Virus record (IMG/VR): IMGVR_UViG_3300028115_000004
Span: 51,860 to 115,859 of that record
Strand: one strand, 5' to 3'
DNA from: a virus
Length of the DNA stretch: 64,000 bases
Below are positions 30,433 to 35,216 of this stretch, one piece after another. Position 1 is the stretch's first letter. The number at the start of each line of letters is the position of its first letter. The translations under genes and the position numbers were made by a program. The notes under the pieces are model-generated. The model made no database searches, was not told where the DNA came from, and was given only the letters and a program-made list of their open reading frames with translations.

Positions 30433-32418
30433 ATGATTAAGATTGATAAGAGCAAGGATGCCCTACTCGCAGACTATGCGGTGGGCATGTTAAAGGATTT
30501 TTACCTCAACGAACATGAGAATAGTCCCCAAGAGGGATACAGACGTGCGGCAACCGCATGGTCGAGATATAAGGATGAACTTGATGAAGACCTCGCACAG
30601 CGTCTTTATGACTATGTTAGTAATAAGTGGTTTATGTTTGCTTCTCCAGTATTATCTAACGCACCGAATGGACACGGCAAAGGAAAGGGAATGCCCATTT
30701 CTTGTTTCCTTACATACGTCCCTGATACTTTGGAAGGTCTCATTGACCATAGTTCTGAGTTACGTTGGCTTAGTGTTTATGGCGGGGGTGTCGGGGGTCA
30801 TTGGTCTGACGTGCGAACCGTGTCTGACATTGCTCCAGGCCCAATTCCGTTTCTACACACCGTAGACGCAGACATGATTGCGTACCGACAGGGTAAGACT
30901 CGTAAGGGTTCTTACGCTGCGTACATGGACGTGTCTCATCCAGATATTGTAGAGTTTCTTAACATCCGTATTCCTACGGGGGACGTGCAACGTAAGGCAT
31001 TGAACCTCCACAACGCAATCAACATCACCGATGAGTTCATGACTGCGGTGACAGAGAATAAAGATTTTGATCTGCGTGACCCCAAGGGCGGTAAGGTTAA
31101 GGAAAGTATTAACGCACGTAAACTCTGGGAACGTATTATTGAAGTTCGATTCCGTACAGGTGAACCATACCTGAACTTTATCGATACTGCCAACCATGCG
31201 TTACCTCAAAAATTGAAAGACTTGGGTCTAAAGATTCATGGGTCTAATCTGTGTAATGAAATTCATTTACCGACAGGCCCTGATCGTACCGCCGTTTGTT
31301 GTCTGTCCTCATTAAATCTAGAGTACTACGATGAATGGAAAGATACGACTATTGTCCGTGATCTTGTGCGTATGCTCGATAACGTCTTGCAGTACTTTAT
31401 CGACGAAGCACCGGACACGATCACCCGTGCTAAGTATAGCGCAATGCGAGAACGTTCCATTGGTTTGGGCGCAATGGGATTCCACTCTCTCCTCCAAAAA
31501 CATGGGGTGGCTTGGGAATCTTCTACAGCAGTTGAAATCAACACCGTGGTGTTTAACCATATCAAACAAGAAGCAGTACGAGAAACCGAAGCCCTTGCAA
31601 TTGAAAGGGGAGAGTATCCCGATGGAGAAGGAACGGGTAGACGCAACTCACACTTGCTTGCTATCGCCCCCAATGCGTCCAGTGGTGTTATCCTGTCCAC
31701 CTCGCCCTCTATCGAACCCATGAAGGCAAATGCGTATACGCATCGAACCCGATCAGGAAGTTTCTTGGTAAAAAACAAACATTTGAAACAATTACTTACC
31801 GAACGGGAAATGGACAATGACTCTACTTGGACATCAATTATCACCAACAAGGGGTCGGTACAACATCTACCTTTCCTCACTGAAGGTGAGAAGGCGGTGT
31901 TCAAGACTGCACAGGAACTAGATCAGAATTGGGTGGTTACTCACGCTGCGGATAGACAACCTTACATTTGTCAGGGACAATCGGTAAATCTATTCTTCCC
32001 CTCTGGTGCATCCAAGTCTTATGTCAACAAGGTACACTTGAGGGCATGGAGAGATGGATTGAAGGGACTGTACTATCTACGTACCGAAGCGAAGTCTCGT
32101 GCAGAGAACGTATCGGAGAAGGTGGAACGAGTCGCACTTCAGGATGACAACCGTAGTATTGTCTATGGTAAAAAGAACTGTCCCTATTGCCAACTGGCGA
32201 AGGATGAGTTAACATTGCGAGGCATTCCGTTCGATTACATCGATCTGGAAGAACTTGGTAAGACGGCTGCAGAAGTGACTGGTCGTAAGGTCAAGTCTGT
32301 ACCGCAAATTTACATCGAAGGTAATTACATTGGTGGGTATGATGAACTCATTGCGTTCATGAACAAAACCATTTTAGACACTTCAGAAGATAATGAATGT
32401 AGAGCCTGCGAGGGTTAA
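30433..32418 (+). CDS. nrdA: Class I ribonucleotide reductase large subunit with embedded glutaredoxin domain
   Basis: 661 aa. The catalytic barrel is recognisable: MPISCFLTYVPD (first redox Cys), SNLCNEIHLPT (active-site Cys/Glu) and VCCLSSLNL (second redox Cys). There is no N-terminal ATP-cone, so dATP overall-activity control is probably lost. After the core (to about residue 570) comes a complete glutaredoxin domain with CPYC (Cys583-Cys586), SVPQIYIEG and IGGYDEL, and only then the redox tail CRAC (Cys656, Cys659). The reductant of the tail is thus fused in place. It lies upstream of nrdB with a 26-base overlap and supplies dNTPs for phage replication. Confidence 0.93.
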   Translation: MIKIDKSKDALLADYAVGMLKDFYLNEHENSPQEGYRRAATAWSRYKDELDEDLAQRLYDYVSNKWFMFASPVLSNAPNGHGKGKGMPISCFLTYVPDTLEGLIDHSSELRWLSVYGGGVGGHWSDVRTVSDIAPGPIPFLHTVDADMIAYRQGKTRKGSYAAYMDVSHPDIVEFLNIRIPTGDVQRKALNLHNAINITDEFMTAVTENKDFDLRDPKGGKVKESINARKLWERIIEVRFRTGEPYLNFIDTANHALPQKLKDLGLKIHGSNLCNEIHLPTGPDRTAVCCLSSLNLEYYDEWKDTTIVRDLVRMLDNVLQYFIDEAPDTITRAKYSAMRERSIGLGAMGFHSLLQKHGVAWESSTAVEINTVVFNHIKQEAVRETEALAIERGEYPDGEGTGRRNSHLLAIAPNASSGVILSTSPSIEPMKANAYTHRTRSGSFLVKNKHLKQLLTEREMDNDSTWTSIITNKGSVQHLPFLTEGEKAVFKTAQELDQNWVVTHAADRQPYICQGQSVNLFFPSGASKSYVNKVHLRAWRDGLKGLYYLRTEAKSRAENVSEKVERVALQDDNRSIVYGKKNCPYCQLAKDELTLRGIPFDYIDLEELGKTAAEVTGRKVKSVPQIYIEGNYIGGYDELIAFMNKTILDTSEDNECRACEG

Positions 32419-33424
32419 GGAGAATAAATTGTCGTTGTTAGATTTTAGCACAACATACAAACCGTTCAAGTACCCTTGGGCGGTAGAACTATCGAAGAAA
32501 CACGAAGAGATTCATTGGATCGAAGATGAGGCAGAACTGTCCGAAGACGTACAGGACTGGCGAACCAAACTGACCGCTGATGAGAAAGAGTTCATCACTC
32601 AGGTACTCCGTCTGTTTACTCAGTCGGACGTACAGGTGGGTGAGAACTATCATGAGTTGTTGATTCCTAAGTTTAAGAATAACGAGGTACGCAACATGTT
32701 GTCCTCGTTTGCCGGTCGAGAGGCCGTGCACCAACGTGCGTATGCACTGTTGAATGATACCCTTGGTCTACCCGATGAAGAGTATCACAAATTCCTTGAG
32801 TACAAGGAGATGGCTGACAAGGTTGAATTCATGAAAGAGGGTGACACATCCTCACATACGGGTCTTGCCCTTGCACTTGCACAGTCTGTGTTTAACGAGG
32901 GTATGAGTCTGTTCTCTTCCTTTGTGATGCTTCTCAACTTCCAACGTTTCGGTAAGATGAAGGGTATGGGTACAATCGTTGAGTGGTCTATCCGAGATGA
33001 GTCAATGCACGTTCAAGGCAATGCTAAACTGTTTCGAGCATTTTGCGAAGAACATCCTCGTATCGTCAATGACGAACTCAAGTCTAAGATTTACGAGATG
33101 GCCAAGACTGCAGTTGAATTGGAAGACAAGTTTATCAATCTTGCGTTCAAGGGTAATGAAGTACAGGGTCTCACTAAAGAAGAAGTACGCAAGTACATTC
33201 GACACATTGCTGACAGACGTTTGCTTCAACTTGGTATGAAAACAAAATTCCGTCAGAAGGACAATCCACTACCATGGCTGGATTGGGTACTGAACGGTGC
33301 ATCACATGACAACTTCTTCGAAAAACGAGTCACTGAATATTCCGTAGTGGGTATGGAAGGAGACTGGGGTTGGGAAGAAGAACCTGAAGTCTGTGGACTA
33401 GACGGAAGAGGTTGCGCTGCATGA
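32393..33424 (+). CDS. nrdB: Class I ribonucleotide reductase small subunit
   Basis: 343 aa ferritin-like radical subunit. Metal ligands appear in LFTQSDVQVGENYHE (Asp), REAVHQRAY (Glu, His), FNEGMSL (Glu) and RDESMHVQG (Glu, His). The tyrosine seven residues after the Glu of REAVHQRAY corresponds to the radical Tyr122 of E. coli NrdB, so a class Ia-type mechanism is likely. The C-terminus (CGLDGRGCAA) has two Cys, unlike E. coli. The start overlaps the nrdA end. Confidence 0.95.
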   Translation: MNVEPARVKENKLSLLDFSTTYKPFKYPWAVELSKKHEEIHWIEDEAELSEDVQDWRTKLTADEKEFITQVLRLFTQSDVQVGENYHELLIPKFKNNEVRNMLSSFAGREAVHQRAYALLNDTLGLPDEEYHKFLEYKEMADKVEFMKEGDTSSHTGLALALAQSVFNEGMSLFSSFVMLLNFQRFGKMKGMGTIVEWSIRDESMHVQGNAKLFRAFCEEHPRIVNDELKSKIYEMAKTAVELEDKFINLAFKGNEVQGLTKEEVRKYIRHIADRRLLQLGMKTKFRQKDNPLPWLDWVLNGASHDNFFEKRVTEYSVVGMEGDWGWEEEPEVCGLDGRGCAA

Positions 33425-33576
33425 CAGAACAGTTTTACTACGAAATGGAATGTGTTGTTTGCGACACGGTGGTGAAGCTGATTTGTAACTACGAAGATGA
33501 TGATCCAATCCATTGCCCTATGTGTGGTACAGAGGCAGAGGTTACCTACTTAGGAGATAGTGACGCATATACATAA
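33421..33576 (+). CDS. Small zinc-ribbon protein
   Basis: 51 aa, starting at the ATGA that ends nrdB. Two CxxC pairs (MECVVCDT and HCPMCGTE), about 18 residues apart, form a zinc-ribbon pattern; a further Cys lies between them. Zinc ribbons of this size bind nucleic acid or act as partner proteins. Not recognised further. Confidence 0.6.
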   Translation: MTEQFYYEMECVVCDTVVKLICNYEDDDPIHCPMCGTEAEVTYLGDSDAYT

Positions 33577-33580
33577 GTGT

Positions 33581-34009
33581 ATGTGGAACTATAGAAACCT
33601 ACCATTCGAACCAAGCGAAGACGAACTCAGCGAATACGTTGGGTTCGTCTATTGCATTACAGAACTAGACACCGGCAAGAAATACATCGGTAAGAAGTTC
33701 TTCTGGTCTACTCGCAAACTCCCTCCCCTTAAGGGCCAGAAACGCAAGCGCACAGTCAAGAAACAGTCTGACTGGAAAGACTACTACGGTTCTTCAGAAC
33801 AATTAAAACTTCTTGTGGAAACAAAGGGCGGTGACGCATATCACCGTGAGATACTTCGTCTCTGCAAAACCAAAGGTGAGTGTTCGTACTACGAAGCGAA
33901 AGAACAATTTGATCGTGATGTCTTGTTATCAGATCGATACTACAATGAGTTTATAGGATGTAAGATTCATGCGAAACATATTAAGGAGAAGTTAATTGAT
34001 AACACGTAA
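33581..34009 (+). CDS. GIY-YIG-like nuclease-type protein
   Basis: 142 aa. The N-terminal GFVYCITELDTGKKYIGKK carries GxxY...KxYIGKK, the core of GIY-YIG nucleases, followed by SDWKDYYGSSEQL and a helix with FKREI-like residues (YHREILRLCKTKGECSYYEAKEQF). Marine T4-like phages carry related proteins annotated as putative endonucleases. The catalytic Glu and Arg positions are not certain to me. The ATG at 33581 is used; a GTG at 33560 would add 7 residues. Confidence 0.6.
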   Translation: MWNYRNLPFEPSEDELSEYVGFVYCITELDTGKKYIGKKFFWSTRKLPPLKGQKRKRTVKKQSDWKDYYGSSEQLKLLVETKGGDAYHREILRLCKTKGECSYYEAKEQFDRDVLLSDRYYNEFIGCKIHAKHIKEKLIDNT

Positions 34010-35216
34010 AATTATTAATCCTAATATCCTGTATGATACAAAGTATACAGCGGATCACATCTATTCTTTGATCAACCGTTGGAAACAACTGTTGTATCGT
34101 AACAAGGCACAGAAGGGTGACCTTGTTGCTATCGGTATTCTTAACGTCAACGTGTGGCACGTCTCCGCACTTATCGCCTGTGCAGAGTTGGGTCTGCGAG
34201 TTATACTATTGGACGCCCCTGCGAAAAAGGAGACATTACCCTTCACCAAACTCGCCAGGCACGGGCCTGCGAGGTTTTACATTGACGATGGTAGTGGACG
34301 TACCCTCTACGATGGACTACACCAACTCATGCTCAGTCGATATGGTGGTATGCAACTCACCTGTCAGATGGCCGCAAACTGGGATGATACAGATATCCAA
34401 CCTTGGGAAATAGAACCATATACACCTTTCCTTGTTTCTAGTACAAGTGGTTCAACTTCATTCTCCCAACCGATTCAGTTCACCCATAAAGAGGTTGCGG
34501 AAATTTCGGAACGTAACATCGGAATATTCGGATTCGAACCTGAGAGTGTGGTTCTGCACACCAAGAACATGCACCATGCGAGTGCCATGTTGACTGACCT
34601 GTTGCCCTCTCTCATGGTGTCGGAGAAACATTACTCCTATACCCTTGCGGATCGCAACGACTGGCATCCCATCACGGCTGTGGCATTCCACAAGATGATT
34701 GATGCTCATGGTGTCGATAGGATGATTGTACCTAATGTAGATGTCCTGAACTGGTTATTGGAAGACGCCCCTCCGTTTAGAAAGACTGTACGGATGAACA
34801 TGTCTGGATTCTGTCTGGGGCCTATGTTCAACGATCTCTGTCGGAAACACAACATAGAGTTCCTGCAACACTATGGGTCTATCGATACTGCGATTCCCCT
34901 CATGACTAGACTGGTCACTGCGGACTCAGAACCCGAAGATGATTGTCTGGGAACCTTGCCAGATGACCAGTGGGATGTTACAATGAGTGAAACCTCTAGG
35001 TACTTAATGGTACGAGTTCGGGGTAGAGAACAGTGGAAGAACATAGGAGATATTGTGAAGTTCCGAAATGAGAAGTATTACCATTTAGGAAGGACTAGCG
35101 AGAGTCCCTTGGATATTCCGGAAGACCTTGATTTGACTCCATTTTTTCAGGATACCAAGTTGAACATGGATCAACTGCGGGCCTACATCCACCTAAAAAA
35201 AGTTGAAAAAAGTTAA
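33996..35216 (+). CDS. ANL-superfamily adenylate-forming protein lacking the C-terminal lid
   Basis: 406 aa, TTG start chosen because AGGAG lies 8 bases upstream. It has the adenylation core: KGDLVAIGILNVNVWHVSALIACAELGLRVILLDAP at the N-terminus, the P-loop SSTSGSTSFSQPIQFTHKE (residues 149-168), HYGSID near 290 and the A8-like KNIGDIVKFRNEKYYHLGR near 350. It stops just after A8, so the C-terminal lid domain with the A10 Lys is missing; many ANL enzymes need it for the adenylation step. It may therefore bind an acyl-AMP or work with a partner. It is similar to the protein at 9338. Confidence 0.65.
   Translation: MITRKIINPNILYDTKYTADHIYSLINRWKQLLYRNKAQKGDLVAIGILNVNVWHVSALIACAELGLRVILLDAPAKKETLPFTKLARHGPARFYIDDGSGRTLYDGLHQLMLSRYGGMQLTCQMAANWDDTDIQPWEIEPYTPFLVSSTSGSTSFSQPIQFTHKEVAEISERNIGIFGFEPESVVLHTKNMHHASAMLTDLLPSLMVSEKHYSYTLADRNDWHPITAVAFHKMIDAHGVDRMIVPNVDVLNWLLEDAPPFRKTVRMNMSGFCLGPMFNDLCRKHNIEFLQHYGSIDTAIPLMTRLVTADSEPEDDCLGTLPDDQWDVTMSETSRYLMVRVRGREQWKNIGDIVKFRNEKYYHLGRTSESPLDIPEDLDLTPFFQDTKLNMDQLRAYIHLKKVEKS

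Follow-up and report, generated by a model that had tools for sequence, protein, structure and literature searches.

The window, a stretch of 64,000 nucleotides, is a portion of a 115,859-bp viral record, and the source virus is a marine-type phage. Its nrdA-grx gene (Table 1) is one open frame that encodes an uninterrupted class I NrdA, consisting of a catalytic core, a flexible linker, a complete CPYC glutaredoxin (Grx) and a CRAC tail. The translation contains zero internal stops; a stop that separates Grx from NrdA, named in the original prediction as grounds for its refutation, is thus absent.

Table 1. Features of the nrdA-grx locus (positions in the window)
Feature	Position	Strand	Basis or remark
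nrdA-grx, encoding the large subunit of a class I ribonucleotide reductase with a glutaredoxin insert	30433..32418	+	661 aa
NrdA catalytic core, residues 1-553, without ATP cone	30433..32091	+	Pfam PF00317/PF02867; AF2 pLDDT mostly >85
NrdA linker, residues 554-572	32092..32148	+	low confidence in model; conserved with unfused NrdAs
Glutaredoxin domain, residues 573-645, canonical b-a-b-a-b-b-a	32149..32367	+	PF00462 E 4.7e-11; DSSP of model
Glutaredoxin dithiol CPYC, Cys583/Cys586	32179..32190	+	
Disordered redox tail, residues 646-661	32368..32415	+	pLDDT <50
Tail cysteine pair CRAC, Cys656/Cys659	32398..32409	+	terminal CxxC-type pair in 238/238 fused and 171/171 unfused NrdA ORFs
AAGGAG, likely ribosome-binding site of nrdB	32417..32422	+	read from sequence
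nrdB, likely TTG start, no Grx domain	32429..33424	+	PF00268; start agrees with C48C1 NrdB
GIY-YIG homing endonuclease, SegE-like, next to nrdB	33560-34006	+	PF19835
AMP-binding (adenylate-forming) enzyme, just after nrdAB and the GIY-YIG gene	33996-35213	+	PF00501 E 6e-9

Pfam matches in the protein comprise Ribonuc_red_lgN, Ribonuc_red_lgC and Glutaredoxin (residues 577-633), with the all-alpha domain of ribonucleotide reductase (RNR) at residues 14-80 and the barrel from residue 90 onward; the first 587 residues match PRK09102 (NCBIfam) at 770 bits versus a cut-off of 620. The features of a class I NrdA are all found: the all-alpha and barrel domains, an active-site Cys pair, a thiyl Cys, a C-terminal Cys pair, and an NrdB partner gene that adjoins directly downstream. 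Residues C91, N272, C274, E276, C289 and Y547/Y548, which we take to be the counterparts of E. coli C225, N437, C439, E441, C462 and Y730/Y731, are unchanged across 51 aligned homologues. The inserted domain, which shares a single chain with the RNR subunit, carries the thioredoxin-type fold, CPxC, TVPQ/SVPQ cis-Pro and GG motif of a dithiol glutaredoxin (PF00462). The cysteines of CPYC (translation, Pfam) and of CRAC (translation) bear the residue numbers originally given to them.

An AlphaFold2 model of the monomer, built on 51 aligned sequences, reached a mean pLDDT of 87.9. The ordered core extends to about residue 553, short of the end near residue 570 that had been predicted, as residues 554-571 fall below pLDDT 50. 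Its best PDB match is 6dqw, a class Id alpha subunit (TMt 0.95). A canonical Grx fold spans residues 576-643, followed by a disordered tail (646-661) that contains CRAC; the tail of class I NrdA is likewise disordered in solved structures. The structure prediction proposed as a check thus recovered the Grx fold and the disordered CRAC tail, within a monomer in which both tethers flanking Grx are below pLDDT 50.

The start of nrdB is probably TTG 32429 rather than ATG 32393, since AAGGAG lies upstream and the resulting N-terminus is the same as that of C48C1 NrdB, MSLLKTSETYKPF. Pfam found no glutaredoxin domain on the window NrdB, and a profile search of the viral record, which may be incomplete, returned neither a second glutaredoxin nor any thioredoxin. 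A further 12 records with an RNR-fused Grx, from 11 distinct phages, were searched, and in each of them it is likewise the sole PF00462 match; S-TIM5 and one relative additionally carry thioredoxin. A Pfam search for the ATP cone (PF03477) detected none in NrdA, NrdB or elsewhere in the whole 116-kb record, in agreement with the original prediction for NrdA. Cone-based dATP shut-off is therefore absent, as had been proposed. PF03477 was also not found in the records of fused PhiW-14, SH-Ab, C48C1 and S-TIM5 or of the unfused phage Melnitz; since even unfused Melnitz does without the cone, its absence characterises these phage RNRs and is independent of the insertion.

The position of the insertion is revealed by alignment with the unfused NrdA of Methylophilales phage Melnitz, in which RAENVSQKVARDALKD..EECVACQG corresponds to RAENVSEKVERVALQD-[Grx]-NECRACEG in the window. 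The C-terminal end of the Melnitz protein reads YYLRTETSQRAENVSQKVARDALKDFESQAVEAQSQEECVACQG, and its window counterpart reads YYLRTEAKSRAENVSEKVERVALQDDNRS-[Grx]-..SEDNECRACEG. As both flanks match this unfused sister, they are the ancestral linker and tail, and Grx was inserted within the ancestral linker between core and tail, so that the conserved linker segment precedes it and the terminal CxxC follows. Its predicted placement between NrdA core and tail is thereby confirmed, and fusion of Grx at the C-terminal end followed by renewed evolution of a tail was rejected on the same grounds. The distance from the YY motif to the Grx CxxC is exactly 36 residues in 13/13 window-type representatives, and 36-40 residues separate YY from the tail CxxC in unfused Melnitz types. 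Grx CxxC hence occupies the position of the Melnitz tail pair, which accounts for the frequent stop of profile or BLAST matches to unfused NrdAs at residue 587.

The original prediction had treated this layout as unusual and had asked for a survey of NrdA fusions in phage genomes. Many relatives were found, and its uniqueness was rejected. The nearest annotated one is phage C48C1, listed under Kyanoviridae (79.5% over the whole protein), and the arrangement is present in all close relatives with a complete gene. Within the phage collection, the order core-Grx-tail recurs in cyanophages S-TIM5/54/61/66, Delftia PhiW-14, C48C1, and Acinetobacter SH-Ab 15599 and nACB2; cyanophage S-CBWM1 has it as well. 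Among the fetched loci, 238 complete NrdA ORFs carry Grx ahead of the terminal Cys pair, after the core, and 171 lack it; these counts reflect redundant environmental contigs and query-driven sampling and are not frequencies. The fused ORFs form 42 clusters at 85% core identity, and the terminal Cys pair is kept in 409/409 ORFs, fused and unfused together. Placement of Grx within the operon also follows a pattern. Of the fused operons, 222 have nrdB in reach, and in none of these does NrdB carry Grx too; conversely, Grx sits at the NrdB N-terminus in all Melnitz-type operons with nrdB in reach (78/78), and Citromicrobium phage RXM carries it at the NrdB C-terminus. In another 11 viral operons NrdA is unfused and neither subunit within reach carries Grx. 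NrdA-Grx together with NrdB-Grx was never found among the collected operons.

Sequence divergence from 13 relatives gave median pN/pS values of 0.18 for the core, 0.09 for the linker, 0.24 for Grx and 0.41 for the tail, where the cysteines are fixed; the ratios are rough, as synonymous sites are near saturation. The Grx CxxC is retained in 43/43 representatives and CPxC in 42 of them, and the Grx segment is under purifying selection. Since the core-Grx-tail layout is kept in close relatives and Grx has a pN/pS of about 0.24, a chance origin is excluded. It should be noted that conservation of the linker exceeds that of the catalytic core (0.09 versus 0.18) despite its predicted flexibility, and that strong linker constraint is common to fused and unfused NrdAs.

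In the core tree, fused NrdAs fall into three groups, namely window/C48C1, PhiW-14/SH-Ab/nACB2 and the S-TIM5 type, divided by supported branches with unfused sequences. All trees are quick searches, and the core tree uses a simple model, on which a single clade of all fused sequences was rejected (AU; delta lnL 340, p 6.6e-79), and with it one origin for all NrdA-Grx fusions. As the fused NrdAs are not one clade, the insertion arose at this same site, or was moved there, two times or more; this calls for at least two insertions, or for a single one combined with horizontal transfer of the cassette, alternatives between which the Grx tree is too weak to decide. A single insertion later lost in unfused relatives, which has no bearing on mechanism, fits the Grx tree, where one Grx clade is not rejected (p 0.67; 72 columns, weak), and one insertion may be common to the window and PhiW-14 groups (one clade not rejected on the core tree, p 0.25). 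Given the rejection of one fused clade on the core tree and the assignment of the S-TIM5 RNR to another subclass, Id/NrdAi (PMC6370689), a single insertion is unlikely. Descent of the NrdA Grx from that of Melnitz NrdB finds no support: the Grx sequences differ, and the Grx tree, itself weak, does not join them.

Lytic phage replication is limited by dNTP supply, and the thiol partner of RNR is usually borrowed from the host. We consider it very probable, judging from the sequence, that the window protein is a self-contained class I NrdA, in which a relay in cis from glutathione via CPYC and CRAC to the active-site disulfide replaces host Grx. In each turnover, the terminal CRAC would reduce the active-site disulfide C91/C289 of the same or the neighbouring subunit, and oxidised CRAC would then receive electrons from the CPYC of the Grx on its own polypeptide or on the dimer partner, present at high local concentration, with Grx recharged by glutathione. 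Grx hangs between two flexible tethers, of roughly 19 residues on its N-terminal and 16 on its C-terminal side, which would leave it free to swing as the tail reaches into the active site. The diffusing host Grx would be swapped for a 1:1 tethered one, with host GSH and NADPH still drawn on. Glutaredoxin in turn takes its electrons from glutathione and NADPH-dependent glutathione reductase, or from another host reductase, and the host thiol pool is for this reason still required. The proposal that the enzyme carries its own reductant thus stands insofar as the phage brings a Grx with it, the sole one detected in the record, whereas the proposed independence of host thiol partners is an overstatement: only host Grx is replaced, and by known Grx chemistry GSH and NADPH are still needed. 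The fused Grx might serve other clients as well. The proposed relay agrees with the general class I scheme, in which turnover oxidises the active-site Cys pair, the C-terminal pair re-reduces it, and Grx or thioredoxin (Trx) reduces that pair, as summarised in PMC6187632, which also reports biochemical proof that the NrdB-fused Grx of Facklamia ignava reduces its RNR via a dithiol mechanism. In the window protein, none of the three redox centres has lost its cysteines.

Other roles for the insert have to be weighed against this relay. With its dithiol 36 residues past YY in 13/13 window-type proteins, where unfused Melnitz types have their tail pair (36-40 residues), Grx could reduce the active site directly and leave the terminal CRAC as accessory or relic. 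This is highly unlikely, as the terminal Cys pair is kept in 238/238 fused ORFs though the remaining tail drifts (pN/pS 0.41), and a folded Grx would hardly get into the buried active site. The cysteine-rich domain of class II NrdJ, a C-terminal RNR addition that serves oligomerisation and electron transfer (PMC5704485), offers a precedent for a Grx that serves chiefly in docking or oligomerisation, or as a glutathionylation sensor, with the tail reduced by host Grx or Trx. Both catalytic Grx cysteines are kept, however, and exactly one Grx, always on RNR, occurs per searched phage record, which makes such a role very unlikely. Finally, a separate Grx could be made by internal initiation or processing, the fusion not being the working form. 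The sole in-frame GTG ahead of Grx is at 32122, but a purine-rich GGAG is merely 2 bases from it, a bad spacing, and zero in-frame ATG codons occur between core and CPYC; a separately translated Grx is unlikely on these grounds. Cleavage would moreover leave the tail cysteines on the Grx fragment, off the core, and altogether a separate Grx is extremely improbable.

A tethered Grx in the RNR holoenzyme is shared with F. ignava, where Grx is the shown reductant, with the Grx-NrdB of Francisella and with Melnitz-type phages. In these systems Grx is located at the NrdB N-terminus, whereas it lies in the NrdA tail in the window, and the F. ignava RNR has the ATP cone that the window RNR lacks. The NrdA of cyanophages S-TIM5 and S-CBWM1 has the same order of core, Grx and CxxC tail, but it differs in RNR subclass (S-TIM5 being class Id, NrdAi), forms a separate core-tree clade, has a shorter distance from YY to Grx (28-29 residues) and is encoded with nrdB upstream of nrdA. 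The C-terminal domain of class II NrdJ (PMC5704485) resembles the insert as an extra redox domain that passes electrons to the active site, but it is a zinc-binding domain with six cysteines in a class II enzyme, and the window domain is a Grx. Fusion of Grx to class I NrdA was reported in 2018 for two viruses, probably with the same architecture; the accessible part of that report names neither the viruses nor the Grx position relative to the tail, and contains no biochemical test of them (PMC6187632). One may guess that they are the PhiW-14 and S-TIM5 RefSeq records. No paper on Grx insertion between core and tail, on its recurrence or on the exclusion of NrdB-Grx was found in a search that covered mostly literature outside subscription. 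The fusion in viruses is thus known already, and the linker site, the recurrence and the NrdB-Grx exclusion are added here as a modest new evolutionary pattern.

That insertions recur at one site, and that NrdA-Grx and NrdB-Grx exclude each other, suggests real selection for a tethered Grx. Tentatively, phages of two RNR subclasses may have arrived independently at a self-reducing enzyme, with the core-tail linker as a recurrent acceptor site. In the window lineage the operon's single Grx would reside in the NrdA linker or at the NrdB N-terminus, not both, and tethered Grx could be a component of phage RNRs that is under selection and can swap position. With Grx between core and tail, the electron path would be intramolecular, which provides a natural test of tail shuttling between reductant and active site.

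Fused NrdA was also encountered in contigs of bacterial MAGs (L094, Sphingobacteriales, 142 kb; L103, Opitutales; L105, Microbacteriaceae). Cellular carriers were rejected, as contig size and identity indicate that these are probably misbinned phage. In Rhodobacter phage RcXuper, a glutaredoxin gene that stands on its own lies a short way downstream of nrdA (locus L416, 4393-4614), possibly an unfused precursor state. The fused NrdA of S-CBWM1 is annotated with an intein, and inteins are probably present in other fused NrdAs of 870-1020 aa too (L085, L091, L413, L182, L197, L206 and L234 fall in this size range).
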